Source: Planococcus wigleyi
GTDB lineage: Bacteria; Bacillota; Bacilli; Bacillales_A; Planococcaceae
NCBI RefSeq assembly: GCF_014836985.1
Contig: NZ_JACSPU010000001.1
Location: 307,473 to 371,472 of the forward strand
Reading direction: 5' to 3'
Length of the DNA stretch: 64,000 bases
Part shown: piece after piece, positions 5,483 to 45,939 of the stretch
Layout: every line of letters starts with the position of its first letter
Numbering within the stretch: position 1 is the stretch's first letter
Translations under genes and position numbers: made by a program
The notes under the pieces: generated by a model
Database searches by the model: none
The model's input: only the letters and a program-made list of their open reading frames with translations
What the model was told of the DNA's origin: nothing

Positions 5483-7609
5483 GTGAGTCCGTTGTTTACT
5501 AATCTTTCCAAGAAAATCACCGTCAAAAAGCTCATCGTCTGGATGCTGACTGTATGTTTTATGGTCGGCTTGCCGTTTCTGACGTTGTATGTCAGTGAAA
5601 CGATTGTCCGAAAAGCGTTGGACATGCCGTTTTCTGTCTGGACGACGGAGTTTACCAAACGCTTTGCCTTGAATATCATCATCTTAATTGCGGTCTTCAA
5701 TGTCTTGTATATTCTGCCGCGCAAATGGTTCATGTTCACCAGTTTTCTGGTGAGCTGTATCCTGGTTATTTTTGCGGTGGCCAATAATATGAAAATCGAG
5801 CTGCGCAATTCCCCGATTTCCCTTGGCGATTTCGCTTTGCTCAATGAACTGCGTGGATTGGAAAATCCCGTCGATTTGTCGATGCCGCTCATTCTCGGGG
5901 GAAGTGTGGCTTTTCTGGTTGTCACTGTTGCCATTTTTTGGCTCGTACCGAAAATCAAAGAATGGTGGGTGCTGAAAATCGGCGTCTCGGTCCTGTCCAT
6001 GGCGTTCCTGGCCATTTTATGGACGGGCTATCCGTTTTCACCGATGGAAAAAGTGCAATTCCAAAATACCTGGTGGCAGCAGGAAGTCGGAACGATGAGA
6101 AACGGCTTGTTCGGCAACTTTGTCTTGCTGGCGCAACAGGCAAAAATTGACCCGCCGGAAGGCTATTCAAGAAACACTATTGAAACGATTGGCAAAGACT
6201 ATGTGCCGGGCGAAAGCACGACAGAAGAAAAGCCGAACGTCATTATTCTCATGAGTGAAGCCTTTATCGACCCGTATCATTTTGGGGAAGAACATTTCAC
6301 CCAGGACCCGATTCCGAATTTCCGCAAGCTGTACGATGAATCGATGCATGGCACTATGTATTCGCCGGAATTCGGCGGGGGAACGGCGAACGTGGAATTT
6401 GAAGCGTTGACCGGTTTGAGCCGACAGTTCATGCCGGACAGTTCTGTCGCGTATCAGCTGTATGTCAAGAAGCCTTTGCCTTCCGCTGCTTATGCATTCA
6501 AGGACGCCGGATATGAAACGACCGCCATCCATTCGTATTTCGGCTGGTATTACCAGCGGGAATCGGTTTATCGTCTGCTGGGCTTTGATCAATTTATTTC
6601 CGGGGAAATGATGGATCTGGACCACGCGCTTGGTTCCGGCTGGGGCTTTCCGAAAGACCATAACATCACCAATTCGGTGCTGGAAACCCTGGACACGACC
6701 GAAGGACTGGATTTTGTCCATGCTGTAGCGGTTGAGGGACATCAGCCTTATAAGCCGCAGGAAGAGTCCGAATTGGTGAAAACCGGTGAACTTCCGGACA
6801 TCACCCGGCAGTACTTGAATAAATTCACCGATAAGATGAACAGCGTCGACAAAGAAATCGGCCGCCTTGTAGAAGAACTCGAAAAACGTGACGAGCCGTC
6901 GATTTTGGTTTTCTTCGGCGATCATTACCCGACTTTCGGGAACAATAACCAAGTCTACGGTTCGCAAGGGACGCAAATCGCGAACAATATGCTGGGGGAT
7001 TACGACGATTTCATCAATACTCACAACGTCCCTTACTTCATTTGGAAGTCGGAAGGCAACGAGCCGAAAGAACTGGACTTGTCGCCCAATCAATTCGGGG
7101 CCATCGCTTTGGAAATGGCCGGCGTCAAAGGGAATACAGTGACCGCCATTCTGGATGACATGCGGGCAAAAGGCGATGCTGTCATTCCGTATAACCAGTG
7201 GCAAAAGCAGATGGGCGCACAAACAGAAGAAATGGGCGACCTGCACCAAATGCAATTTGATTTGCTTCACGGCAAACGCCATGTTGAAAAAACGATTCCT
7301 GGATTGATCGGCAAGCCTGCGGACGATTACCATCTTGGCCTGTATCCGGAAATGGATGTCCGGAAAATCACGGACAACGGCAATTCCTTTGAAATCCTGA
7401 CCAAAGGCGTTCCGAAGTTCACGAAATTATTGAGTGAAAATGATGAAGAGCTAGTGGCCGAATGGAATGAACTCGGCAACGGGCTTTCGGCTTTTACAGT
7501 CAATAAAAGCGATATAGAAGCTGGAGAAAAATTCCGGTTTGCCCTATACGATTCATTGGAAAACATTCTGCGGAACACCGATTATTTTGAAATAGCGGAA
7601 ACGCCGTAA
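5483..7609 (+). CDS. LTA synthase family protein (membrane phosphoglycerol transferase)
   Basis: A 708-residue polytopic protein: about five N-terminal membrane segments (residues 17-37, 62-78, 84-100, 134-155, 162-180), then an extracellular sulfatase-fold domain. Metal and nucleophile sites are visible: Glu259 in ILMSEAFIDP, Thr301 in EFGGGTANVEFE, the FFGDHYP motif and the EGHQPY histidine. In characterised LtaS a threonine nucleophile forms a glycerophosphate intermediate taken from phosphatidylglycerol. The role is probably to build or decorate a polyglycerolphosphate polymer; whether it is the housekeeping LtaS cannot be decided. The GTG start at 5483 has only a weak ribosome site, and a TTG at 5492 is possible. 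A paralogue of equal length lies at 17868. Confidence 0.8.
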   Translation: MSPLFTNLSKKITVKKLIVWMLTVCFMVGLPFLTLYVSETIVRKALDMPFSVWTTEFTKRFALNIIILIAVFNVLYILPRKWFMFTSFLVSCILVIFAVANNMKIELRNSPISLGDFALLNELRGLENPVDLSMPLILGGSVAFLVVTVAIFWLVPKIKEWWVLKIGVSVLSMAFLAILWTGYPFSPMEKVQFQNTWWQQEVGTMRNGLFGNFVLLAQQAKIDPPEGYSRNTIETIGKDYVPGESTTEEKPNVIILMSEAFIDPYHFGEEHFTQDPIPNFRKLYDESMHGTMYSPEFGGGTANVEFEALTGLSRQFMPDSSVAYQLYVKKPLPSAAYAFKDAGYETTAIHSYFGWYYQRESVYRLLGFDQFISGEMMDLDHALGSGWGFPKDHNITNSVLETLDTTEGLDFVHAVAVEGHQPYKPQEESELVKTGELPDITRQYLNKFTDKMNSVDKEIGRLVEELEKRDEPSILVFFGDHYPTFGNNNQVYGSQGTQIANNMLGDYDDFINTHNVPYFIWKSEGNEPKELDLSPNQFGAIALEMAGVKGNTVTAILDDMRAKGDAVIPYNQWQKQMGAQTEEMGDLHQMQFDLLHGKRHVEKTIPGLIGKPADDYHLGLYPEMDVRKITDNGNSFEILTKGVPKFTKLLSENDEELVAEWNELGNGLSAFTVNKSDIEAGEKFRFALYDSLENILRNTDYFEIAETP

Positions 7610-9836: not shown

Positions 9837-9862
9837 AAAAGCTGCTGCCTAGAGAAAAAAGC

Positions 9863-9886
9863 GGAAAGCGCAGACCTGCGCTTTCC
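9863..9886. other. Intergenic hairpin before array C
   Basis: GGAAAGCGCA and TGCGCTTTCC form a 10-bp stem, the same as at 1865-1888. It is again followed by a GGGCAT stretch and then by a 21-bp-period array. Confidence 0.6.
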
Positions 9887-9889
9887 CGT

Positions 9890-10027
9890 GTTGGGCATCC
9901 GGCGGTTTTAGGGTGTTGAACAGTATTCAGGTGAGAACGGATCGTATTTTCCTCAATCGGACAGTATTTGTATCCAATGGACTGTATATGCCGGAGTTTG
10001 GACTGTATGTCCAACAACTGGAAGAAT
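9890..10027. repeat. 21-bp-period intergenic array (array C)
   Basis: Units of the form GGACNGTATTT or GGACTGTATAT start at 9918, 9939, 9959, 9979, 10000 and 10020, spaced 20 or 21 bp. The array ends with a GTATGTCCAACAACTGGAA unit. About 390 bp separate it from the next start codon. The rest of this 580-bp gap holds no convincing gene, only a probable promoter near 10268. Confidence 0.75.
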
Positions 10028-10265
10028 AGCTGGTCTCGCATTTAAAGAATAGTGACGCCACCTCCTTATAATCTCCGCGACCAGAATTACAGTCTATAAG
10101 TAATAGAATTATGATTAAAACGTTTTTCGGGTTCTGTAGATAACGGACGAAAAGCTGCTTATTCAGGAATTCCATTTCCTGTTCCAGACGAAAAATAGCG
10201 TTGTTGCATCAAAAAAATATATTTAATAGATACGCTTCAAAGTACTTATATTTTTTCCGGTATAT

Positions 10266-10273
10266 GGTATGAT
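10266..10273 (+). promoter_or_regulatory. Extended -10 upstream of the carboxyethylornithine synthase-like gene
   Basis: TGGTATGAT, a TG-N extended -10. No good -35 is visible. The 5' leader would be about 140 nt. Confidence 0.35.
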
Positions 10274-10416
10274 TCAAAATAGATCAGCTATACGGAAACG
10301 ATATTAATATATTAACTCACTCGACAATTTTTGAGGGTTGTCCGGTCGATTCTGTATGAAATGTCTATTATCAGCCGATCAGGATTCACCATCAGTTCAT
10401 TAATTGGAGGTTTATT

Positions 10417-11391
10417 ATGTACACAATAGGATTTGTCATCAGCCACAAAAACAATGAAAAAAGAAGAGCGCTTTTGCCGCAGGATATGCCGAATATCAAA
10501 AACATCAAGCAGTTATTTTTTGAAGTAGGATACGGCGAGGCATTGGGCTACTCGGATGCCGAGTATGAAGTGTCAGGCGCTCAATTCGTTTCACGTGAAG
10601 AAGTGCTCCAATGTGACGCCATTGTCGATGTGAAACTGGGCAACGCGGATTATTTCGATCAATTGACACCTGGTAAACTGTTGATCGGTTGGGCGCATGC
10701 CGTTCAGGATATCGCCTTTACAGATTCGGTGCTTGCAGGAGACCATACAGTGGTCGCTTGGGAAGAAATGTTCGAAGACGGCCGTTACATCTTTTACCGC
10801 AACCGCGAAGTTGCCGGAGAAGCGGCGATTCTTCAAGCGTATCAATATTGCGGCAAAATGCCTTACGAAACGAAAGTGGCGGTTCTTGGAAATGGCCATA
10901 CGACAAAAGGTGTGCTGCGCATTCTTCACGGCTTAGGTGCCGATGTTGATGTCTACGGGCGCAAGCTGGAATCCCTGTTCATCAAGAACATGGGCAATTA
11001 CGATGTGCTGGTCAACTGCGTTATGTGGGATACGACACGTACAGACCGCATCATTTATAAGGAAGATCTGAAACGCCTGAAAAAAGGAGCGATGATCGTC
11101 GACGTCAGCTGTGACCCGAACATGGAAATCGAAACGTCCCGTCCGTCGACCATCGATGATCCCGTCTATACAGTGGATGGCATCATCCATTACACGGTGG
11201 ACAACACGCCGGCAATGTTCCCGCACACAGTCACGAAAGTGCTGAGCGAAGGATTTTCCCCAATGGTCGATAACTTTGTCGAAGGCAATTGGACCGACAT
11301 GATCCGTGATGCCGTCGTCATCGAAAACGGCCACATCATTGATCACCACATTAAAGAGTTCAGAGAAGCCAGAAACCTATTAGTGAAATAA
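10417..11391 (+). CDS. N5-(carboxyethyl)ornithine synthase family protein
   Basis: A 324-residue dehydrogenase of the alanine dehydrogenase/PNT superfamily. The N-terminal MYTIGFVISHKNNEKRRALLP segment and the GYGEALGYSDAEY motif match carboxyethylornithine synthases, which condense pyruvate with ornithine or lysine using NADPH. The Rossmann segment AVLGNGHTTKGVLRIL starts near residue 153. ATG follows TTGGAGG with good spacing. It is monocistronic, with a bidirectional terminator behind it. A saccharopine- or alanine-type dehydrogenase activity remains possible. Confidence 0.75.
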   Translation: MYTIGFVISHKNNEKRRALLPQDMPNIKNIKQLFFEVGYGEALGYSDAEYEVSGAQFVSREEVLQCDAIVDVKLGNADYFDQLTPGKLLIGWAHAVQDIAFTDSVLAGDHTVVAWEEMFEDGRYIFYRNREVAGEAAILQAYQYCGKMPYETKVAVLGNGHTTKGVLRILHGLGADVDVYGRKLESLFIKNMGNYDVLVNCVMWDTTRTDRIIYKEDLKRLKKGAMIVDVSCDPNMEIETSRPSTIDDPVYTVDGIIHYTVDNTPAMFPHTVTKVLSEGFSPMVDNFVEGNWTDMIRDAVVIENGHIIDHHIKEFREARNLLVK

Positions 11392-17867: not shown

Positions 17868-19994
17868 GTGTTTGAAGTGGTGAGAAATTTGAGTTTCAAA
17901 AAAATAGCGGTGTGGCTGTTGATGCTTTTCTTCATGGTCGGCTTGCCGCTTGCAACATTGTATGTCAGTGAACGGCTGGTCCGTGAAGTGCTGACTTTGC
18001 CGCTACGGGAATGGGTGGCGGAATTGCCGGAGCGCTTTATGGTCAATGTGCTGCTGATGCTGGCATTATTCAATCTATTGTATATCCTGCCAAGAAAATG
18101 GTTCATGGTTACAAGTCTGATCTTGAGCAGCTTTTTGGTGGTCTTCGCTTATGCCAATCAAGTGAAAATGGAGCTCCGCAGCTCGCCGATTTCACTCGGG
18201 GATTTTGCGCTGCTGAAAGAATTGGGCAGTCTGGAGCAGCCGGTCGGCATCAATGTTCCGTTGCTGGCGGGCATTGGTTTGGCTTTTATTGTGTTAGTTG
18301 CAGCAATTCTATTTTGTGTACCGAAGCTGAAGGAAAATTGGATTCTGAAGACAGGAGTTTTTCTTGTTTCCGTGTTGTTCCTGGTGATGATGTGGACCGA
18401 CAAGCCGGCCTCTCCAATGGAAAACGCGAACTTTGAAAATACGTGGTGGAAGTTGGAATTAGCACTGATGCGCAACGGCGTCTTCGGCAACTTCGTCATG
18501 CTGGCTAAAAATTCCCGAATTGAACCGCCTGAAGGTTTTTCTGCAGATAACATGAAAACCATTGCGGAAAAGTACCAGCCGGATGAAAGAACGGGCGGAG
18601 AAAAACCGAATGTCATTTTCCTGATGAGTGAATCGTTCGTTGATCCATATTTATTTGGGGAGCAGCATTTTGCTAAAGATCCAGTCCCTAATTTCCGCCG
18701 TCTCTATAAGGAATCACTGCATGGCGGAATGTATTCCTCAGAATTCGGGGGTGGGACGGCCAATGTAGAATTCGAGGCGTTGACTGGCTTCAGTATGCAG
18801 TTTATGCCGGCGAATTTCGTGCCGTACCAGTTGTATATTACCAAGCCGTTGCCGTCCGCGGCTTATGCTTTCAGGGAAGCGAATTATGAAACAACAGCAA
18901 TCCATTCCTACTTCGGCTGGTTTTACCAGCGTGAATCGGTGTATCGCCAAATGGGCTTTAACCGTTTTATCTCGGGTGAATTCATGGATTTAGACCAACC
19001 CAACGATCCCGGAAAAGGGTTTCCAAAAGACAAGCACATAACCGATTCAGTCATAGCGACGCTGGACAGAACCGAAGGACCGGATTTTATTCATGCAGTG
19101 GCTGCTGAAGGCCATAGTCCTTATTACAAAACCGAGCAATCGGAATTTATGAATAGCGGCACGTTGCCGGAGGAAACAAAACAGTATTTAGCCAATTATA
19201 CGGGGAAAGTACATGGTGCTGATGCCGAACTCGGGCGAATGGTGGAAGAGATCGAAGCGCGTGGCGAGCCGGCAATCCTGGTGTTTTTCGGAGATCATTA
19301 TCCGTCCTTTTCAGATAATGAAGCGATATATGGAGAAGCGGGCACAGGCATTGCGAACGACATGCTGGGGGATTACGACGATTTTATTGCCACCCATAAA
19401 GTGCCGTATTTCATCTGGAAATCCGATGGCAATCAACCCGCAGAACTTGATGTCACACCTAACCAGTTCAGTGCCTTGGCACTTGAGATGGCAGGCATCC
19501 AGGGCAATACGGTGACAGCGATACTGGACGATATGCGGGAACAAGGAGATTCGGTAATTCCGTACAATCAATGGCAAAGTGAAATGGGTCCGCAGACCCA
19601 GCAGATGAAAGACCTGCAGATGATCCAATACGATCTGCTTCATGGCAAGCGTTATTCAGAATACTTGATGCCGGACCTTGTCAGAAGGCCTTCTGCGGAT
19701 TACCATTTAGGGCTTTACACTGAAATGCATGCGCAGAAAGTGCTGGAAACTACAGATTCCTATGAATTTTATGTTGAAGGAGCTCCCAGATTTTCAGAAG
19801 TCCTGGTTGATGGTGAGCCTGTCACTGCCGAATGGCAGCCAGCGGAGCAAGGTTTGGCAGTTTTCAGTGTGTTGAAAGATCAAGTGAAAGAAGATGCAGC
19901 GATTCAAGTGGTTGTCTACAACTCCAGAGGAGCCGTATTAAAAGAAACGTCTGAATTTACAATTGAAGAAACTGTGGCAACAAGCAAAAAGTAA
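17868..19994 (+). CDS. LTA synthase family protein (paralogue 2)
   Basis: A 708-residue paralogue of the gene at 5483, collinear throughout: five N-terminal membrane helices, then the sulfatase-fold domain with LMSESFVDP (metal Glu), EFGGGTANVEFE (threonine nucleophile), EGHSPY and FFGDHYP. Proposed reaction: transfer of glycerophosphate from phosphatidylglycerol onto a lipid or glycan acceptor outside the membrane. GTG 17868 is used; further GTG codons at 17877 and 17880 are possible because the ribosome site is weak. The C-terminal region after the catalytic domain differs more between the copies, as expected for distinct acceptors. Confidence 0.8.
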   Translation: MFEVVRNLSFKKIAVWLLMLFFMVGLPLATLYVSERLVREVLTLPLREWVAELPERFMVNVLLMLALFNLLYILPRKWFMVTSLILSSFLVVFAYANQVKMELRSSPISLGDFALLKELGSLEQPVGINVPLLAGIGLAFIVLVAAILFCVPKLKENWILKTGVFLVSVLFLVMMWTDKPASPMENANFENTWWKLELALMRNGVFGNFVMLAKNSRIEPPEGFSADNMKTIAEKYQPDERTGGEKPNVIFLMSESFVDPYLFGEQHFAKDPVPNFRRLYKESLHGGMYSSEFGGGTANVEFEALTGFSMQFMPANFVPYQLYITKPLPSAAYAFREANYETTAIHSYFGWFYQRESVYRQMGFNRFISGEFMDLDQPNDPGKGFPKDKHITDSVIATLDRTEGPDFIHAVAAEGHSPYYKTEQSEFMNSGTLPEETKQYLANYTGKVHGADAELGRMVEEIEARGEPAILVFFGDHYPSFSDNEAIYGEAGTGIANDMLGDYDDFIATHKVPYFIWKSDGNQPAELDVTPNQFSALALEMAGIQGNTVTAILDDMREQGDSVIPYNQWQSEMGPQTQQMKDLQMIQYDLLHGKRYSEYLMPDLVRRPSADYHLGLYTEMHAQKVLETTDSYEFYVEGAPRFSEVLVDGEPVTAEWQPAEQGLAVFSVLKDQVKEDAAIQVVVYNSRGAVLKETSEFTIEETVATSKK

Positions 19995-27166: not shown

Positions 27167-28636
27167 ATGGAACCACAACCATCATTGAAGAAAAAAACAA
27201 TTGGCGGTCTGGTGTGGAGTTTTGGTGACCTGATAGGCAACCAAGGCATACAGTTCCTCATCCAGATTATTTTGGCGCGGTTGTTGCTGCCTGAACATTT
27301 TGGATTGATCGGCATGATTCTGATATTTATCGCCTTGTCAAATTCGTTGGTCGACAGTGGATTTACACAAGCTTTAATCCGTGAACGCCACGCCAACCAA
27401 ACGGATTATTCAACCGTCTTTTATTTTAATCTAGTTGTATCGTTCTTGATTTATTTGATCTTGTTCCTGGCTGCTCCGGCAATCAGCCGTTTCTTCGGCG
27501 AACCGCAGCTGGTGGCACTGGTCCGTGTATTGTCTATTGGAATCGTCATTAACGCATTTGCCGTCATTCCAAAAGCCATGTTCGCCAAAGAAGTAAACTT
27601 TAAAACGCAGGCCAAAATCAATTTAAGTTCCAGTATCCTGTCCGGTCTTTTTGCGGTGGGGCTGGCATTGGCGGGCTACGGGGTTTGGAGTCTGGTGCTG
27701 CGGCAATTATCGATGAATGCCATCCAGTCTCTGTTGTTCACGGTGACAAAAAAGTGGGTGCCTTCTTTGGTGTTCAGTGTGTCTTCGTTCAAGCGTTTGT
27801 TCGGATTTGGCTGGAAACTTCTTGTCTCCGGAATGATTGATACTTTCTATACGAATGTCTATTTCCTGATTATCGGAAGGCAATATTCAGCGGCACAGTT
27901 GGGCTATTATACAAACGCCTCCCGTTTCAGCGAAATCGTTTCGCAGAATTTGGCGGCGACTATTTTAAGGGTGACTTATCCGGTGCTCAGCAGCATCCAG
28001 GATGAACACGAACGCTTGAAACAGTCCTATAAAAATATCACCAGGCTTGCCGCTTTCCTCATTTTCCCGGTAATGGTCGGCATGGCTGCGATAGGGGAAC
28101 CTTTAGTATTGTTGGTGTTTGGCGAAAAGTGGCTGCCGATGGTGCCTTATTTTCAATTGCTGTCCATCGCTGGGATGCTGTACCCCATTTTGGCGCTCGA
28201 TTTGAGTATTCTGCAGGTGAAAGGGCGATCGGATCTTTATCTATCCTTAGAGATCATCAATAAACTCTCGTTGACGATACTTTTGTTTCTTGCAGTATGG
28301 CTGGAATTGGGGGTCATCGGATTGATCGGAGCAGCTATTTTAAATACATACTTGGAATTCTTCGTCAACAGCCATGTCTCTAAGCGGGAAGTGGCTTATC
28401 CGGCTATGGAAAAATTAAGTGACCTCTTCCCGATTTATTTGATTTCGTTTGGGATGGGTGCTGTAGTGTGGCTGATCGGTCAGCAAGTTGAAGGGAATCT
28501 TCTTTTCCAAATGGTCTTGCAGGTAACTGCTGGAATCTTTATTTATATCGCCGTTTGCCGGATCGCAAACATTGGCGAACTGAGAACGGTTTATGGATTG
28601 ATTAGTTCCGTTCTTGCTCAAAAAAACAAACGGTAA
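27167..28636 (+). CDS. Wzx-type polysaccharide flippase (paralogue 1)
   Basis: A 489-residue MOP-superfamily transporter with about 12-14 membrane helices. The N-terminal KKKTIGGLVWSFGDLIGNQGIQFLIQIILARLL and FGLIGMILIFIALSNSLVDSGFTQALIR are typical of lipid-linked oligosaccharide exporters. It moves undecaprenyl-linked repeat units across the membrane. It is closely related to the gene at 32893 along its whole length and less so to 39683. The ATG follows a weak site (GGGATAGGAG), and the gene is linked to the preceding GT2. Confidence 0.88.
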   Translation: MEPQPSLKKKTIGGLVWSFGDLIGNQGIQFLIQIILARLLLPEHFGLIGMILIFIALSNSLVDSGFTQALIRERHANQTDYSTVFYFNLVVSFLIYLILFLAAPAISRFFGEPQLVALVRVLSIGIVINAFAVIPKAMFAKEVNFKTQAKINLSSSILSGLFAVGLALAGYGVWSLVLRQLSMNAIQSLLFTVTKKWVPSLVFSVSSFKRLFGFGWKLLVSGMIDTFYTNVYFLIIGRQYSAAQLGYYTNASRFSEIVSQNLAATILRVTYPVLSSIQDEHERLKQSYKNITRLAAFLIFPVMVGMAAIGEPLVLLVFGEKWLPMVPYFQLLSIAGMLYPILALDLSILQVKGRSDLYLSLEIINKLSLTILLFLAVWLELGVIGLIGAAILNTYLEFFVNSHVSKREVAYPAMEKLSDLFPIYLISFGMGAVVWLIGQQVEGNLLFQMVLQVTAGIFIYIAVCRIANIGELRTVYGLISSVLAQKNKR

Positions 28637-32892: not shown

Positions 32893-34371
32893 ATGAAACA
32901 GGAAAAGTCATTAAAGAAAAAAACAATCAGCGGTCTGTTGTGGAGCTTCGGAGACATGTTAGGAAATCAAGGCGTGCAGTTTATTATTCAAATTATCCTG
33001 GCGCGGTTATTGGCTCCTGCCGATTTTGGGTTGATCGGAATGATTCTGGTGTTCGTTGCACTTTCGAATTCACTTGTCGACAGCGGCTTTACACAAGCAT
33101 TGATACGGGATCAAAAAGCCAATCAAACCGATTATTCAACGGTGTTCTATTTCAACTTGGCTGTATCGATTTTTATTTATGCAGCGTTATTTGTCTCGGC
33201 GCCCCTGATCAGCAACTTCTTCGATCAAGATCAATTGACGTCGATTATCCGGGTACTGGCATTAGGTGTCATCGTGAATGCGTTCTCGATCATTCCTAGA
33301 GCGATGTTCACCAAAGAAGTGAATTTCAAGGTGCAGGCAAAAGTTAATATGGCAGCAAGTGTGCTGTCGGGCATTGTAGCAGTTGCCATGGCACTGACTG
33401 GTTTTGGTGTGTGGAGTTTGGTTATCCGGATGCTGGCTTTGAATCTTATTCAAGCGCTGTTGCTGGTTTTCTCCAGGAGATGGATGCCTTCACTGGTTTT
33501 CAGTGTAGAATCCTTCAAGCGGCTTTTTGGTTTCGGCTGGAAATTGCTTGTGTCAGGTTTGATTGATACAACCTATAACAACATTTACTACCTCATCATC
33601 GGCAAGCAATATACGCCCACTGCTTTAGGGCATTATACGAATGCTTCGAAATTCAGCGATGTCGCTACACAAGCGATGACGGCGACCATCCAGCGGGTAA
33701 CCTACCCGGTATTGAGTGGGATCCAAGAGCAGCACGATAGGCTGAAGCAAAGTTTTAAGAAAATCATCAAACTTTCCGGATTTCTCATTTTTCCGGTTAT
33801 GGTCGGTGTGGCGGCAGTCGCGGAGCCGCTGATTTTACTGGTTTTCGGCGAAAAGTGGAGAGAGATGATCCCTTACTTCCAGCTATTGTGCATCGCCGGA
33901 ATGCTGTATCCGATACACGCATTGAATTTGAACATTCTTCAAGTGAAAGGGCGTTCGGATCTATTTCTGTATTTAGAAATCATTAAAACCATTGTACCGA
34001 CAGTGCTGATATTTATTGTCTTCTGGATGGATTGGGGCATTACCGCCTTAGTGGCCACAGTGGTCATTGACTCGCACATTTCCTTATTCATCAATATCTA
34101 TTTTTCTGGCCGCGAGATTTCATACAGCGTCAAAGAACAGATTCAGGACTTGTTTCCGATCTATGGCATTTCTTTGGCGATGGGCGCAGTAGTTTACGGC
34201 ATCGGCGGATTTTTGCCCTTTTCCAATCTACCGACCTTGCTTTGCCAGATTGGAATTGGTGTAGTGCTCTATATCTCGATTAGCAAACTGTTTAAAATTC
34301 AGGAATTCGATACCGTTCTTGACTTATTGGTACCTGTCATAAAAAAGATTAAGCCCGCTAAGACGGGTTGA
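32893..34371 (+). CDS. Wzx-type polysaccharide flippase (paralogue 2)
   Basis: A 492-residue MOP-superfamily exporter nearly collinear with the gene at 27167: the start KKKTISGLLWSFGDMLGNQGVQFIIQIILARLL and the central FGFGWKLLVSGLIDTTYNNIYYLIIGKQY are shared. It flips undecaprenyl-linked oligosaccharides. A leader of about 180 nt with a masking hairpin precedes it. ATAGGAG sits 9 bases before ATG. It is followed within 40 bp by the DegT-type gene and so may open the operon that runs through rmlA and rmlB. Confidence 0.87.
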   Translation: MKQEKSLKKKTISGLLWSFGDMLGNQGVQFIIQIILARLLAPADFGLIGMILVFVALSNSLVDSGFTQALIRDQKANQTDYSTVFYFNLAVSIFIYAALFVSAPLISNFFDQDQLTSIIRVLALGVIVNAFSIIPRAMFTKEVNFKVQAKVNMAASVLSGIVAVAMALTGFGVWSLVIRMLALNLIQALLLVFSRRWMPSLVFSVESFKRLFGFGWKLLVSGLIDTTYNNIYYLIIGKQYTPTALGHYTNASKFSDVATQAMTATIQRVTYPVLSGIQEQHDRLKQSFKKIIKLSGFLIFPVMVGVAAVAEPLILLVFGEKWREMIPYFQLLCIAGMLYPIHALNLNILQVKGRSDLFLYLEIIKTIVPTVLIFIVFWMDWGITALVATVVIDSHISLFINIYFSGREISYSVKEQIQDLFPIYGISLAMGAVVYGIGGFLPFSNLPTLLCQIGIGVVLYISISKLFKIQEFDTVLDLLVPVIKKIKPAKTG

Positions 34372-35561: not shown

Positions 35562-35578
35562 GAAATGAGGGATCGATG

Positions 35579-36481: not shown

Positions 36482-37498
36482 ATGGAAAATATACTAGTAA
36501 CCGGCGGAGCGGGATTTATTGGAGGGAACTTTGTCCAATACATGGTCGAGAAATATCCGCAATACCATATTTATAATCTGGATTTGCTGACGTATGCAGG
36601 AGATCTGACAAAGCATCAGCAGATCGAAAACAAAGAAAACTACAGTTTTGTACACATCGATATCGCTGACCGACAGGCAGTGGGCGAATTATTCGAACGG
36701 GTGGATTTTACTTATGTCGTCCACTTTGCTGCTGAAAGCCATGTCGATCGGTCGATTACAGATCCGGAAGTATTTATCCGAACCAATGTGCTGGGCACGC
36801 AAGTGTTGCTGGACGCTGCTAAATCGGCGGAAGTCCGGAAGTTCGTCCATGTCTCGACTGATGAAGTATATGGCGAACTGAGCTTCGATCCCACAACATT
36901 CTTTACGGAAGAAACACCGATCCAGCCTAATAGCCCGTACAGTGCCAGCAAAGCGTCTTCGGATCTATTGGTCCGGGCTTATCACGAAACGTATGGGCTG
37001 CCGGTCAATATTACGCGCTGCTCCAATAATTACGGCCCGTACCATTTTCCGGAAAAATTGATTCCATTGACGATTTCACGGGTGCTGAATGACCAAAAAG
37101 TTCCGGTTTACGGCGACGGCAAAAATGTCCGTGACTGGCTCCATGTGCTGGATCATTGCTCGGCGATCGATTTGGTGATGCATAGTGGAACGGTCGGCGA
37201 AGTGTATAATATCGGCGGCCACAATGAGATGACCAATCTTGAAGTGGTGCGCACCATCATTCGGGCTTTAGGGAAGACCGATGAGTTGATTGAATTTGTC
37301 GAAGACCGTTTAGGCCATGATAAACGATACGCCATCGATCCAACGAAAATCGAAGAATTGGGATGGCGACCGGTTTATGACTTTGAAACAGGCATTGCCC
37401 AAACCGTTGATTGGTTTCTTGAAAACAAGGAATGGTGGGAAAAAATCATCAGTGGCGAATACCAGCAATACTTCGATAGGCAATATGCACGCAAATAG
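36482..37498 (+). CDS. rmlB: dTDP-glucose 4,6-dehydratase
   Basis: A 338-residue SDR enzyme converting dTDP-glucose to dTDP-4-keto-6-deoxyglucose. NAD-binding TGGAGFIGGNF near residue 7, AAESHVDRSI near 81, the DE pair in STDEVYGEL and the YSASK catalytic motif are intact. rmlC and rmlD do not follow, so the keto sugar probably passes to the aminotransferase encoded upstream rather than to rhamnose. It begins 12 bp after rmlA with GGGGCGCC as a weak ribosome site. Confidence 0.93.
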   Translation: MENILVTGGAGFIGGNFVQYMVEKYPQYHIYNLDLLTYAGDLTKHQQIENKENYSFVHIDIADRQAVGELFERVDFTYVVHFAAESHVDRSITDPEVFIRTNVLGTQVLLDAAKSAEVRKFVHVSTDEVYGELSFDPTTFFTEETPIQPNSPYSASKASSDLLVRAYHETYGLPVNITRCSNNYGPYHFPEKLIPLTISRVLNDQKVPVYGDGKNVRDWLHVLDHCSAIDLVMHSGTVGEVYNIGGHNEMTNLEVVRTIIRALGKTDELIEFVEDRLGHDKRYAIDPTKIEELGWRPVYDFETGIAQTVDWFLENKEWWEKIISGEYQQYFDRQYARK

Positions 37499-37546
37499 AG
37501 AGATGGGCCAGATGTTGTATGCCGGTGGACAAGGGGGAAGAGCAGC

Positions 37547-39661
37547 TTGAGCAATCAGTCGACAATCAGTGAATATATAAGGAAATTGTATCCGGATAAA
37601 CAGGCAGTGAAAGTCCTGGAATTCAATGCTGAAACCAGCGGCCTGAAAAAACAGTTGGCAGCTTCGGGTTATGAAAATTATTTGGGGATCTGTACAGGCG
37701 AGCCAATGGGCAGCCGGGATCCTGATCTGTATTACGCGAATGAAAAGACGTTGACCTATAAAAACAATGCAGAAGTATTAATCATCAACCGGGCTGATTT
37801 TATGGATCTGAAAAATGCATTTCATTCTTCTGCGGATGTGATCTTGTTTATTCCGTCCAAAATCATTGACCGTGCCAGCTTCCTGCCGCTCTGGGCATAT
37901 AAGCTGGCGAGAAAGAAAAAATGGTCTTTTCATTTTGAAGCGTTTGCCGGCAGTGCAGGTGAAACCCGGACCGTTATCGTCTTCAAGCGCAATCACCGGA
38001 AAGAAAAGGCAGCTCGGCAATACCTATCTCCTGAATTGGGATTGGAAAATTTTTTCGATTTGTTGAATGAGCGGAAACTGGATTACGTCATTTTGCGCTG
38101 GTTTGATGAATTGCCTTTTTTGGATCTGGATGAAGACGTGGACTTGTTGGTTTCAGACACCCATATCGAAAAAGTCAGAGACTTGTTAAATGAAAAAGTC
38201 GGCATATTGCCGTTTGATATTTATAGTGCAGGCGGGTTGCCGGGAAGCAACTTCAATAATATCGCCTATTATCCGCCTTACATCGCGGAAACGATTCTGG
38301 ATCAAAAAGAATTGTGGAACAGCAAGTATTTTATTCCGTCTAAACGGCATTATTTTCTTAGCCTCATGTACCATGCGGTTTACCACAAAGGCGAGAAATC
38401 AGGGATTCCAGCCAAGGCTGGAGGTGTCGTCAAAAAGATTCCGCAGGATCATGATTATCCGGGAGTCCTCCAGGACCTTGCTGTCCAAACGGATGACAGG
38501 CTGGAAGAAATCAGCCTGGAATATTTCCATCATTTTCTTGAAGAAGAAGGGTGGGCGCCGTCGACTGACACGATCCGGAAACTGATCGGCGTCAGTGGAA
38601 GCTGGCTCGAATCGACCATTAAATCGAGTGAGCATAATTTTGAAAAAGACGGGGAACTGATGGTGTTTGTTGTTCGGGAATGGGCGGAAGAGCGGCAGTT
38701 GACCCATAAGATCATCGATTGGTTTGAGCGCAACGGCCTGTGCTTAATTCGGGCGATCAAATTGGATGAAGAACAGAAAAGAAATGCCTCCCAAAGCATG
38801 CGCGGCGGTAATTGGGGGCAAGGTCCATGGCCAGTGAGCGGCGGCAAGCCGTCGACTTTGCTGGTCATGTATGATTACCACCCGAAACCGTTAAGTGCAA
38901 AGATGAAGAAAAAATACCCGCATGTCTCGAATGAACATTATTTGCTGAAAGAGCAGTTGCGTTCGGAAATCAATTTTTCCTTATCCAAAGATGAGCGGGC
39001 CAATCCGCTTCACAGCGCTGACGATGAAATTGAAGCTTTGGATTATATTTCTGCAGTCGCACCGGACCTCATTGGTGATATTGAAGCGATTGTCACTGAA
39101 TGGGACAATGCTTACCGGACGCCGGAAAAAGTGATAGCGGACGTGTCTGAAAAAAAGCGGCGCGCCAAAGTGGAAGTCATTGAGTACCAAGGAGGAAAAG
39201 CGGTAAAGAAAACCTATAAAGCGGGCAAAGAACGGTTTTTGGAACGTGAAAAGTTTGTCTATGGCGAATTGAGCAAGGAATGTGATTTTATTCCGAAGCT
39301 GATCGACAGCGGCGAGAACTACATCATCGTTCCATACTTAAAGACCAATAAAGTGACAGAAAGCTGGCACATCAAAAAGCAGATTCTGAAGCGGAAGCAT
39401 AAACAGGAGATTTTCAAGATCAATGAATTCTTCTACAACAAAGGGTACGCACTGATCGATTTCCATCCGGGCAATATCCTTTTGACATCTGAAGGGTTGA
39501 AACTCATCGATTTCGAATTTCTTTATCAATATGAAGAAAAGCCTTTGGATGTCCGTGAATCGTTCGACTTGAATGGGTTTCCGGAAGATTTTACGGAAGA
39601 TAAGCCATACGGGATATTTCCAAAGCAACGCCGCAATATGTGGAAAAAGATATTATATTAA
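37547..39661 (+). CDS. Three-domain protein: nucleotidyltransferase, NDP-kinase-like and protein-kinase-like
   Basis: A 704-residue soluble protein, not a family I can name as a whole. Residues 1-150 look like a degenerate Rossmann or methyltransferase-type region. Residues 165-350 resemble a nucleotidyltransferase (LDLDEDVDLLVSD, with Asp197 and Asp199 as the metal pair). Residues 368-505 follow the NDP-kinase pattern: an N-terminal strand-helix (LMVFVVREWAEERQLTHKII), an LRSEIN segment (Arg472) and NPLHSADDEIEALDY, where His489 aligns with the phosphorylated histidine. Residues 540-700 resemble a small kinase: VKKTYK (Lys554/555), a Glu-rich helix, DFHPGN (Asp638, Asn643) and LIDFEF (Asp655). 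It lies between rmlB and a flippase, so it may phosphorylate or activate a sugar or polymer end. Domain calls are from motif reading only. Confidence 0.6.
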   Translation: MSNQSTISEYIRKLYPDKQAVKVLEFNAETSGLKKQLAASGYENYLGICTGEPMGSRDPDLYYANEKTLTYKNNAEVLIINRADFMDLKNAFHSSADVILFIPSKIIDRASFLPLWAYKLARKKKWSFHFEAFAGSAGETRTVIVFKRNHRKEKAARQYLSPELGLENFFDLLNERKLDYVILRWFDELPFLDLDEDVDLLVSDTHIEKVRDLLNEKVGILPFDIYSAGGLPGSNFNNIAYYPPYIAETILDQKELWNSKYFIPSKRHYFLSLMYHAVYHKGEKSGIPAKAGGVVKKIPQDHDYPGVLQDLAVQTDDRLEEISLEYFHHFLEEEGWAPSTDTIRKLIGVSGSWLESTIKSSEHNFEKDGELMVFVVREWAEERQLTHKIIDWFERNGLCLIRAIKLDEEQKRNASQSMRGGNWGQGPWPVSGGKPSTLLVMYDYHPKPLSAKMKKKYPHVSNEHYLLKEQLRSEINFSLSKDERANPLHSADDEIEALDYISAVAPDLIGDIEAIVTEWDNAYRTPEKVIADVSEKKRRAKVEVIEYQGGKAVKKTYKAGKERFLEREKFVYGELSKECDFIPKLIDSGENYIIVPYLKTNKVTESWHIKKQILKRKHKQEIFKINEFFYNKGYALIDFHPGNILLTSEGLKLIDFEFLYQYEEKPLDVRESFDLNGFPEDFTEDKPYGIFPKQRRNMWKKILY

Positions 39662-39682: not shown

Positions 39683-41158
39683 ATGGCGTCTTTAAAAAAC
39701 CAAGCGGTGAGCAGCGTCAAGCTCACTTCAATATCGATGCTCGCAACGAGTATCCTGCAGATCGGCCAGTTGCTGATTTTGGGGAGGGTGCTGGGGCCAG
39801 CTGTCTTTGGGCTGATCGCCATGGTGCAGATCGTCATCCAGTTTTCGCAATTGTTCCTGGAGATGGGCATCACGGATGCCATTATCCAAAAAGAAAAAAT
39901 TTCTAAACTCGAACTGTCCAGCCTCTACTGGTTTTCCATTTTCGTCGGGCTGGTGCTGTTTCTCGTTTTATTGATAGCGGCGCCTGTTATTGCCCTGTTG
40001 TTTGATGAGCCTAGCCTGACACCAATGATTCAAGTAGTCGGCATCAGCTTTTTGATCTTGCCGTTCGGCCTGCAGTTCCAGACGCTTGCTACAAAAAAAC
40101 TGGAGTTCACCCAAATCACCAAAAACGAAATCCTGGCGACGGCAATCGGTGTGCTGCTGACCATTTATTTGGCAGCCTTTACAACGCTTGGTGCGTGGTC
40201 ACTGGTGTGCGGACATATTGCCATGTCGCTGGTCAGAAGTGTCCCGTGGGTAGTCGGCGGTTACCGAAATCCGGAAACCAGGCCGCAGTTCGTATTTTCG
40301 TGGAATGCCATCAAAGGTTTCGTTTCATTCGGCATGTACCGGCTCGGATCAACGAGCATCAATTATTTCACTACAAAAATCGATCAGGTGATCATCGGCA
40401 TCACATTGGGGTCGGTGGCACTGGGTTATTACAGTATGGCCATGAACCTGATCATGCAGCCTGTCCAGAAATTGAATTCGATGATCAATCGGGTAGCGTT
40501 TCCGGTATTTTCAAAAATTCAGCTGGACAGCGCCAAGTTGCGCAGAGCTTATCTGTTGATCACCAATATGCTGACTACTTTTAATGCCCCTCTGCTGGCA
40601 GGAGTGATTGTCTTGGCTCCTTATGCTGTGCCGCTTTTGCTTGGAGAAGACTGGCAACAAAGCATTTTGATCATTCAAATCCTTTGCCTCTATGCTTTGT
40701 TCAAGGCATTGGGAAATCCGAGCGGCAGCTTATTTATCGCCGTTGGAAAAGTAAGGTGGAGCTTTTACTGGCAGCTGGCTCAATTGGGGATCATACCCGC
40801 CGTCGTTTTCCTGTCCAGTTTATCCGGCAACATCTTCGTGGTGGCGTTGTCGGTTGGTTTGCTGAGGCTGGTACTGTTCTACGTCAGTTATTTTGTGCGA
40901 ATCCGCCACATTATCGGTGAAAGCTTAGGTGAGTTGACGATGTCGATCGTCAAACCGATGGCCCACTCGGTTATTATGCTGGCTCCTTTATACGCCATCA
41001 ACGCCCAGTTAACAGGAGTCGGACCAATCGCCATCATTGTTATCGACGCCTTGATCGGTATGCTGGTGTATGGTTTGTTGCTGATTTTCAATCAACGCGA
41101 ATTGATGGTGGAAATAAAGAGCTTTTTTCAAAAGCGGACAGCGGTTAAAGGGGCATAA
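39683..41158 (+). CDS. Wzx-type polysaccharide flippase (paralogue 3)
   Basis: A 491-residue MOP-superfamily exporter with about 12-14 membrane helices. It starts with the family-typical LKNQAVSSVKLTSISMLATSILQIGQLLILGRVLGPAVFGLIAMVQIVI. It is more distant from the other two flippases than they are from each other. AGAGGA with 7-base spacing supports ATG 39683; the gene follows the three-domain gene by 21 bp and is probably co-transcribed. Three flippases in one locus suggest more than one lipid-linked product or redundancy after duplication. Confidence 0.87.
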   Translation: MASLKNQAVSSVKLTSISMLATSILQIGQLLILGRVLGPAVFGLIAMVQIVIQFSQLFLEMGITDAIIQKEKISKLELSSLYWFSIFVGLVLFLVLLIAAPVIALLFDEPSLTPMIQVVGISFLILPFGLQFQTLATKKLEFTQITKNEILATAIGVLLTIYLAAFTTLGAWSLVCGHIAMSLVRSVPWVVGGYRNPETRPQFVFSWNAIKGFVSFGMYRLGSTSINYFTTKIDQVIIGITLGSVALGYYSMAMNLIMQPVQKLNSMINRVAFPVFSKIQLDSAKLRRAYLLITNMLTTFNAPLLAGVIVLAPYAVPLLLGEDWQQSILIIQILCLYALFKALGNPSGSLFIAVGKVRWSFYWQLAQLGIIPAVVFLSSLSGNIFVVALSVGLLRLVLFYVSYFVRIRHIIGESLGELTMSIVKPMAHSVIMLAPLYAINAQLTGVGPIAIIVIDALIGMLVYGLLLIFNQRELMVEIKSFFQKRTAVKGA

Positions 41159-44559: not shown

Positions 44560-45939
44560 ATGGAAAAACAACTTGAGGCCGATGATCGATTTGAAAAAGT
44601 CCTGTATATCATCGTCAATTTATTAACCGGGATTTCTGTGATTTATTATCTGCTTCGTATTGGCCAGGTTTTCAATCCAGAAGATCCGTGGAACTTGTTC
44701 ATTTTAATTATTTTTTCCTTTAAATTCCTTTTAGATATTTATGTCTTTAAGGTGGGATTTGCCACTTTTTCGCTGGTCCTGCTATTTTTGCCGATCATCA
44801 GCATATTGGGTTTCGGGCCAATAGGAGAAGTGCAGCCATTATTCAATGACCGCACCCATCTCATTGAAAAACATTTCTACACATTGGCATTCGGTGCCTT
44901 GTTTTTCTACTATATCTGGTCAATTCTGCTGTGGCTGACCAATAAAACATACCGCAGTTACGATGCGAAGATTTTGGCGTTTTATTCAGGGACGGTCCAA
45001 AGCTTATTGGCTACCTGGTTTTTCAGTGCAGTAGCCATCGTTTCTTCCATTATTTATTTGCCGGATCTGCCGGGGAAGGCCTATCATGAGATGTCGCCCA
45101 GCCTGCTTCCCGGAAATGCCTGGAACTCTGTGGTCGTCATCTCGTATTTCTTCGTGTTGATGGGCGTCAAAGGCAGTGCCATCCGTAAGTTCGCCATTCT
45201 GTTTGTACCTTTTTGGCTGCTCGCGCATTATGCCAGAGTTGATATCTTGGGCTTGTTGCTGATCCTGTATCTGCTTCTGACAGCTACCAAAAAAGCGGAT
45301 GTCATCCGGTCGAAGTTCTCTTTTAAAAAAGCGGCATTGATTGTCGGCGGTTTGCTGGTCTTCTCCTATTTGGGGCTGGTTCGGCATACTGGGTTGATTT
45401 TTGACGTGGAAGCCATTACGGAATCGTTCTTCATGCTCATCAACTATCCCACTGTACAAGACCTTGTCTATTCGACAGCCGCTGCAATGGAAGTGACACA
45501 TACGTATGGCAACTATAATACGCTCATCGACTATATTCCGCAGTTGATTCCTTCGTTCTTTGGAATCGAGGCGCAAAGTCCTCAGGCGGCCCACTTGGTG
45601 GCGTCGCTGATCCATACCAATTATGGATTGTTTGTCTACGGGGAATACTATTTGAATTTTGAGGTTATCGGATTGATCGTGGCACCTTTTGCGACTTATG
45701 CTGTTCTGTTTGTACCGGCGATCTTGCTGAAGAAATTTTTCGGCAATATGGGGATGGCTCTGGGGTATTACTGGATTGTGCTGACGATTGCCCGAGTGTT
45801 CTGGTACGGCTATATCTATTATATCAAGCCGTTGATCATCATCATGCCGATTTTCATCATCCTGTATCTGGTCATTGCATCTTTTGAAAAAGATTTAGTG
45901 GACAAGCCTGCATTGAAATCCACTGATCCACATGCATAG
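44560..45939 (+). CDS. Polysaccharide polymerase candidate (Wzy-like membrane protein)
   Basis: A 459-residue protein with about 10-12 membrane helices and a periplasm-type loop in the C-terminal half (VYSTAAAMEVTHTYGNYNTLIDYIPQLIPSFFGIEAQ). Size, topology, lack of other motifs and position among GT and flippase genes fit an O-antigen/capsule repeat-unit polymerase. Wzy proteins are poorly conserved, so the call rests on context. Confidence 0.65.
   Translation: MEKQLEADDRFEKVLYIIVNLLTGISVIYYLLRIGQVFNPEDPWNLFILIIFSFKFLLDIYVFKVGFATFSLVLLFLPIISILGFGPIGEVQPLFNDRTHLIEKHFYTLAFGALFFYYIWSILLWLTNKTYRSYDAKILAFYSGTVQSLLATWFFSAVAIVSSIIYLPDLPGKAYHEMSPSLLPGNAWNSVVVISYFFVLMGVKGSAIRKFAILFVPFWLLAHYARVDILGLLLILYLLLTATKKADVIRSKFSFKKAALIVGGLLVFSYLGLVRHTGLIFDVEAITESFFMLINYPTVQDLVYSTAAAMEVTHTYGNYNTLIDYIPQLIPSFFGIEAQSPQAAHLVASLIHTNYGLFVYGEYYLNFEVIGLIVAPFATYAVLFVPAILLKKFFGNMGMALGYYWIVLTIARVFWYGYIYYIKPLIIIMPIFIILYLVIASFEKDLVDKPALKSTDPHA

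Follow-up and report, generated by a model that had tools for sequence, protein, structure and literature searches.

The gene at 37547..39661 (+) lies among polysaccharide genes in the stretch of DNA analysed here, a window of 64,000 nucleotides from Planococcus wigleyi, and it raises the question of what a protein that carries the motifs of several phosphotransfer families in one chain does in the assembly of a glycan. The gene is an open frame of 704 codons that starts with TTG. The sequence GGGGGA at 37533..37538 (+), read directly and ending 8 bases before the TTG, is its likely ribosome-binding site. The initial annotation had proposed a fusion of a nucleotidyltransferase, a part resembling NDP kinase (NDK) with His489 in the place of the phosphohistidine, and a small kinase. 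The motifs concerned, DEDVD (residues 195-199), His489, DFHPGN (with Asp638) and DFE (with Asp655), are indeed read at these residues in the translation, and the profile and fold comparisons described below bear out the three-part reading. What had been overlooked was a fourth domain, an N-terminal part with a methyltransferase fold (residues 1-150), so that the open frame and its homologues together describe a four-domain protein of 704 amino acids. No single family in Pfam, NCBIfam or PADLOC was found to cover the full length.

As sole query, the window protein matched nothing over the curated cut-off in Pfam (ABC1 with an E-value of 0.01), kinase models in NCBIfam were matched under the curated cut-off (E-value of 0.005), and the best E-value in a PDB sequence search was only 0.45. 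Since the protein alone reached no curated cut-off, profiles and diverse homologues were needed. Structure comparison by VIA with the full-length model returned mostly kinases, and the missing of nucleotidyltransferase chains from that comparison therefore carries no meaning. A reading as an anti-phage defence protein was rejected: PADLOC, searched at E-values up to 1 with four proteins, returned no family for the window protein or for the homologue L088, and the other two proteins gave weak matches in the kinase part with E-values of 0.013 or worse.

Homologues were collected by scanning named bacterial genomes with two peptide patterns from the nucleotidyltransferase part, which cannot detect chains that do not have this part, and this yielded 60 loci. 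Alignment A2 holds 44 rows, namely 43 of the 60 loci and the window; near copies (L032-L038, L040-L042, L054, L058, L061, L083 and L085) and loci with broken frames (L084 and L089) were left out. The core alignment A4 comprises 43 of these rows, the remaining one (L090) being too short. A core of nucleotidyltransferase and NDK-like parts was found in 43 of the 44 rows, L090 being cut, although the constant presence of the nucleotidyltransferase is partly a consequence of how the scan patterns were constructed. In a genus sample of 46 genomes (Planococcus, some named Planomicrobium), 22 had a match: 18 encode the full-length protein, one of them in two copies, and 4 encode only a shorter form, with a matching span from about residue 160 to residues 512-536. 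Core matches were present in 10 of 398 genomes in the class sample, 9 of these from the window's genus, and in 2 of 398 in the phylum sample, namely the window's own genome and one short weak match. Plasmids and phages gave no match by tblastn, and the peptide patterns were not matched in viral contigs.

The rows of the core tree come from ten phyla (among them 14 from Actinomycetota, 8 from Planctomycetota, 6 from Pseudomonadota and 5 from Bacillota), although many are metagenome bins, for which some phylum labels may be wrong. They group by phylum more than shuffled labels do, with Pseudomonadota and Bacillota each split. Across these phyla the putative active residues of three domains are near-invariant. 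A short form without kinase occurs in other Planococcus, where L083, L085, L087 and L088 have frames of 422-423 amino acids near positions 9845-11179 that consist of the nucleotidyltransferase and NDK-like parts; in the vicinity of these four, a kinase HMM detected no separate kinase gene either. This form is not a recent truncation, because L087 and L088 fall in another supported tree group than the window form. Some loci show further irregularities. A Gemmatimonadetes bin (L046, 2-784 and 9800-12256) carries, about 9 kb from its full copy, a second, C-terminal copy that is cut by the contig end, and the homologues in a Balneolales bin (L084, 9992-11107) and in Pelagibacterium (L089, 9782-11828) are split over two reading frames.

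The evidence for the nucleotidyltransferase-like domain (residues 155-357; 38009..38617, +) comes from HHalign, residue counts and Pfam PF14907. The domain contains Asp197, Asp199, Asp224 and the segment HAVYHKG (residues 276-282). The DEDVD motif (38129..38143, +) was read in the translation, and its Asp197 and Asp199 are conserved. Each of Asp197, Asp199 and Asp224 is present in all 44 rows of A2, though for Asp224, as for residues 276-282, this invariance is partly by construction because they sit in the peptide patterns of the scan. The DxD and the third Asp expected of a pol-beta nucleotidyltransferase are thus present, with Asp224 as the putative third metal ligand. The profile of this part appears to resemble NTP_transf_5 (PF14907) both in the aligned DxD segment and in an HHalign score of 31.7, which lies above the maximum of 60 shuffles (21.1). 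Only 52 columns align, however, and the family differs from NTP_transf_5 by an Arg-Trp near its LKG motif; this Arg-Trp stands in place of the Gly of related families, and the Gly-Ser motif is missing. PF14907 itself matched 14 of 43 cores at E-values up to 10 (best 0.0023), leaving the window core unmatched, and the one bit score seen, for L048, was 11.5 against a cut-off of 31.2. We rejected membership of the LicD family (PF04991), as the HHalign score against a profile of 7 LicD proteins was 19.2 whereas 60 shuffles reached 20.4, so that the nucleotidyltransferase part shows no similarity to LicD above shuffles. A Foldseek search with the core brought up two CCA-adding enzymes, and even the better match, with an E-value of 7.2e-4 and a probability of 0.72, is only a hint.

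The middle part has the NDP-kinase fold (residues 368-508; 38648..39070, +) according to fold and profile comparison. Its HHalign score against canonical NDKs was 51.5 (E-value 3.3e-8), beyond what chance would give: the highest score was 21.8 among four further segments of this family and 26.4 among 100 column shuffles. For the canonical profile, the motifs KPD and NxxH served to pick out 39 NDKs, of which 28 were used; three more loci (L114, L120 and L133) fell outside the pattern. PF00334 matched 12 of 43 cores at E-values up to 10 (best 3.7e-7) and left the window core unmatched. The segment NPLHSADDEIEALDY (residues 486-500; 39002..39046, +) aligns with NxxHGSD of NDKs, so that the fold and the N-x-x-H-x-x-D active-site segment are common to both. 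His489 (39011-39013) is present in all 43 covering rows of A2, L090 being excluded as it is cut by a contig end, and Asn486 in 42 of 43; Arg472 aligns by HHalign with the Arg of TIRGD. Other features set the domain apart from NDP kinases. It is embedded in a larger chain, the lysine of KPD is replaced (Arg377 in the window protein; Arg in 42 and Lys in 1 of 43 rows), and RGGNW occupies the place of the PFF stretch, around the nucleotide-stacking loop. In NDKs, the PFF stretch holds the nucleotide-stacking Phe. Nucleotide binding may therefore differ or be absent.

A separate ordinary NDK is also encoded in the window genome, and the NDK model found a match elsewhere, above its cut-off, in each of the 30 homologue-bearing genomes checked; the match is nearly complete in 27 of them and partial in 3. 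In these three (G443, G444 and G451, the genomes of L050, L051 and L062), the model was matched in several pieces, mostly in frames of about 400 amino acids, which suggests an enlarged or split NDK. Given these other NDKs, the loss of the KPD lysine and the RGGNW in place of PFF, a housekeeping NDP-kinase role appears unlikely for the domain as judged from its sequence. Plain NDP-kinase recycling is likewise less likely than the initial annotation implied, because 42 of 43 rows carry Arg instead of the KPD lysine.

The C-terminal kinase domain (residues 519-690; 39101..39616, +) has all the residues expected in the window protein, namely the VAIK Lys, the alpha-C Glu, the catalytic Asp, the Asn and the DFG Asp. 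Among the 34 rows of A2 that bear a kinase, Lys555 is present in 34, Glu568 in 34, Asp638 in 32, Asn643 in 33, Asp655 in 33 and Glu657 in 34. The kinase lysine, for which 554 and 555 had both been suggested, is Lys555, since Lys554 is found in only 11 of the 34. Asp638 is replaced by Asn in L069 and L071 (Cryomorphaceae), and L046 has neither Asn643 nor Asp655; going by these residues, the three kinases may be inactive. In the predicted model, residues 674-692 and 694-704 have pLDDT values under 50. The closest NCBIfam models to the kinase part are those of lanthipeptide synthetases (30 of 44 members), and structurally, as found with the full-length model, it is closest to CDKL and RIO kinases.

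Ten of the 44 rows have no kinase part. Two of these (L076 and L090) end at contig ends and 8 are intact. Among the 8 intact chains, 4 have a separate kinase-like gene, either directly after (L079 and L080) or about 1.5 kb away (L070 and L078), and no kinase gene was found in the examined flank of the other 4 (L066, L087, L088 and L091). The kinase is therefore a usual but not universal partner of the core. Outside A2, L084 has an APH-like gene just upstream that scores 23.0 bits against a Pfam cut-off of 23.2. Near the kinase-less homologues in Planctomycetota, frames at 6859-8472 of L070 and 12972-14684 of L078 apparently fuse an LPS-kinase-like to a glycosyltransferase-2-like part, according to sequence reading and HMMs.

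The N-terminal domain (37547..37996, +) has a methyltransferase fold with a degenerate SAM-binding glycine motif. By a length criterion it is present in 24 of 44 rows, and together with the kinase in 17. Judged by motif only, [DE]xGxG occurs in 2 of 20 rows and is absent from the window protein; methyltransferase activity was set aside because this motif is missing. When the window protein's gene was compared with five close orthologues, nonsynonymous divergence (dN) was 0.031-0.061 for the NDK-like part, 0.041-0.083 for the kinase, 0.077-0.131 for the nucleotidyltransferase and 0.134-0.178 for the N-terminal domain. The lowest dN was that of the NDK-like part in 5 of 7 Planococcus comparisons and that of the kinase in the other 2 (the more distant L037 and L041). 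We used dN for these 7 orthologues because dS saturates, leaving dN/dS rough or undefined; where computable, the ratios were 0.017-0.184, which places the parts under purifying selection, with the N-terminal domain the least constrained.

The setting of the gene is a flippase-type glycan cluster. It comprises genes for a sugar aminotransferase, RmlA, RmlB, the 704-amino-acid protein, a flippase, GDP-fucose genes and glycosyltransferases, and also a sugar-phosphate transferase, Wzz and a ParA-like ATPase of the Wzz-kinase type. The genes at 35576 and 41455, named from their sequences, are a putative RmlA and a putative GDP-fucose synthase. A sugar-nucleotide dehydratase gene (36482..37498, +; Pfam GDP_Man_Dehyd and Epimerase), which we interpret as RmlB-type, lies 48 bases upstream, and a MOP-type flippase gene (Wzx, Polysacc_synt_3; 39683..41158, +; PF13440, 2e-75) follows 21 bases after the stop codon. 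The window has three PF13440 flippase genes, of which those at 27167-28636 and 32893-34371 are alike (60% identity) and the one at 39683-41158 is of another type. A frame of 459 amino acids at 44560-45939, where the polymerase (Wzy) would be expected, has no Pfam match at an E-value of 0.001. Elsewhere in the window, two plus-strand frames with GTG starts (5483-7609 and 17868-19994) both encode exactly 708 amino acids and are possibly paralogues.

The flippase encoded just downstream, the partner of the protein, has orthologues (at least 54% identity) in 18 of the 46 genus genomes, and these are the very genomes that encode the full-length protein; counting weaker relatives, any match is found in 25 of 46. 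A flippase gene lies directly downstream of 17 of the 19 full-length copies in the genus, the exceptions being both copies of G037, where L039 has a flippase two genes upstream and L042 has none beside it. A second flippase of the cluster, at 32893, was taken as a control and correlates with the protein as well: it has orthologues in 17 of the 18 carriers and in 1 of the 28 non-carriers, being absent from carrier G011 and present in non-carrier G006. Because the genus genomes are related and not phylogenetically independent, the co-occurrence is suggestive only, and what is informative about the flippase link comes from G011 and G006, where the control disagrees.

In Actinomycetota, six homologues (L064, L072, L073, L075, L077 and L082) also have a flippase directly downstream. 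All six of these flippases have a higher mean bit score against 10 partner flippases than against 12 other flippases, both sets drawn from 10 Planococcus loci, and for 5 of the 6 the two sets of scores do not overlap, every partner score being the higher. Two comparison flippases that are not directly downstream gave different outcomes: that of L060 prefers the other type, and that of L086, a convergent gene and not a downstream one in the same direction, still scores higher with the partner type. L065 and L074, in the same tree group as the six, have no flippase beside them, L074 with about 0.7 kb of downstream sequence. More broadly, neighbours were labelled with iterated HMMs from the window genes because calling the longest frames is unreliable in high-GC loci, where antisense frames arise. 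Of the 48 loci L044-L091, 42 have at least one glycan-assembly gene by this labelling, with the limit that the labels GT2 and GT4 are wide in scope and that some of those on the minus strand may be antisense. These HMMs found no glycan gene in L045, L067, L069, L074, L079 and L080. TagD-like and TagF-like genes lie within about 5 kb of L044, L060 and L063; they were confirmed by Pfam for L063, where the TagD-like cytidylyltransferase is the next gene.

The probable role of the protein is to give the polymer a phosphate-based group before it is exported. Phosphate decoration is the simplest reading because three domains have catalytic-looking residues, a kinase, if missing from the chain, is often near, and the protein is tied to one flippase. 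From the domain folds, the conservation, the genomic setting and this flippase linkage, we infer a substrate, a pocket, chemical steps and their order, as follows. The C-terminal kinase would phosphorylate the lipid-linked repeat unit on one of its sugars, or else a small alcohol that is to become part of the unit, and the nucleotidyltransferase and NDK-like domains, the shared core, would then activate or hand on that phosphate. The residue that accepts the phosphate is likely to be His489; going by the alignment, its pocket may be formed by Arg377, Arg419, Lys468 and Arg472. The N-terminal domain, apparently no longer able to bind SAM, probably only binds or positions the substrate. The repeat unit or its precursor would thus receive its decoration just before flipping, and the flippase encoded just downstream would be specific for the decorated product. 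A precedent is the flippase TacF, which lets only decorated units through and recognises phosphocholine by its phosphate groups (PMC13385700). We give an even chance to the general reading, in which a cytoplasmic phosphotransfer enzyme with several domains acts in the assembly of surface glycans and a flippase is specific for its decorated product. Its more particular version, which we hold to be unlikely, would be an enzyme class not described before: here the NDK-fold domain would have turned into a phosphohistidine relay for modifying glycans that passes a phosphate, or a phosphate-linked group readied by the kinase and nucleotidyltransferase beside it, via His489 to a lipid-linked oligosaccharide, and the dedicated flippase would export only the decorated unit.

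Other readings of the same chain have to be weighed. The kinase and the nucleotidyltransferase might make an NDP-linked donor from a small molecule, as LicA and LicC do with choline, while the NDK-like part supplies NTP locally and another transferase decorates the glycan. The presence of both enzymes and of an NDK fold in one chain would suit this, and the TagD-like genes near three homologues would fit CDP chemistry there. It is nevertheless unlikely, as the KPD lysine is replaced and the base-stacking stretch changed, the cell does not need this NDK when the NDK model matches elsewhere in all 30 genomes and in the window genome, and the nucleotidyltransferase profile appears to resemble NTP_transf_5, from which sugar-phosphate nucleotidylyltransferases differ in fold. 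That the three phosphotransfer parts modify proteins, such as the flippase or a glycosyltransferase, and not the glycan, is a reading suggested by the kinase part, which is closest in NCBIfam to lanthipeptide-synthetase models (30 of 44), whose kinase acts on peptides, and which is structurally like CDKL and RIO kinases. The kinase genes beside the kinase-less L070, L078 and L080 look from their sequences to be of LPS or APH type, however, L084 has its marginal APH match, and the family co-occurs widely with assembly genes, so that we consider a regulatory role quite unlikely.

To our knowledge, WbdD and the O7 terminator are the nearest known polysaccharide proteins with kinase and methyltransferase parts. 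A chain terminator or length controller of this kind, with the kinase placing a phosphate on the growing end and the methyltransferase-fold domain finishing the cap, would fit the presence of both folds in one chain of a polysaccharide cluster, as in WbdD (PMC3482155) and the Klebsiella pneumoniae O7 terminator (PMC11231755), as far as the available parts of these sources describe them. Yet the SAM motif is kept in so few rows (2 of 20), the N-terminal domain passes the length test in so few (24 of 44), and the nucleotidyltransferase and NDK parts are left so unexplained that such a role seems very unlikely; the window cluster, moreover, has flippases and Wzz, a setting unlike the ABC-transporter-dependent pathways of the two published terminators. 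We find it hardly probable that the folds have mostly lost catalysis and serve as a scaffold for a biosynthetic complex. The degenerate N-terminal domain, a nucleotidyltransferase without Gly-Ser motif, an NDK part without KPD lysine and the kinase residues lost in L046, L069 and L071 would all agree with this, but the catalytic-type residues of three domains are nearly invariant over ten phyla.

Decoration of a glycan by phosphotransfer before flipping has a close parallel in the route of LicA, LicC, LicD and TacF, which likewise has kinase and nucleotidyl-transfer steps followed by a decoration-checking MOP flippase (PMC13385700); in that route the enzymes are separate, and the available part of the account mentions no NDK part. 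WbdD shares with the window protein a kinase and a methyltransferase fold within one polysaccharide protein (PMC3482155, as partly available), whereas the window protein has a degenerate SAM motif, the nucleotidyltransferase and NDK parts between the two, and a flippase-type cluster. The kinase domain of LanKC, the class III lanthipeptide synthetase whose NCBIfam model is matched by 30 of 44 members, has DFE for DFG as well, according to the available part of its description (PMC10604976). The window protein matches the synthetase model in the kinase stretch only, and the surrounding genes are glycan genes. Keyword searches of the open-access literature, with subscription papers and preprints largely outside their scope, returned no description of this architecture and no record of an NDK fold as part of a glycan-assembly protein. 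The NDK is a textbook metabolic fold. We take the protein to be a putative glycan-modifying phosphotransfer enzyme, with an architecture that is undescribed in the libraries and open literature searched.

If this reading is true, bacteria of about ten phyla make polysaccharides with a phosphate-based decoration to which current annotation is blind, because the libraries searched offer no family name for the genes. Since the protein is paired with one flippase, the idea of quality control by flippases would also become testable outside pneumococcus.
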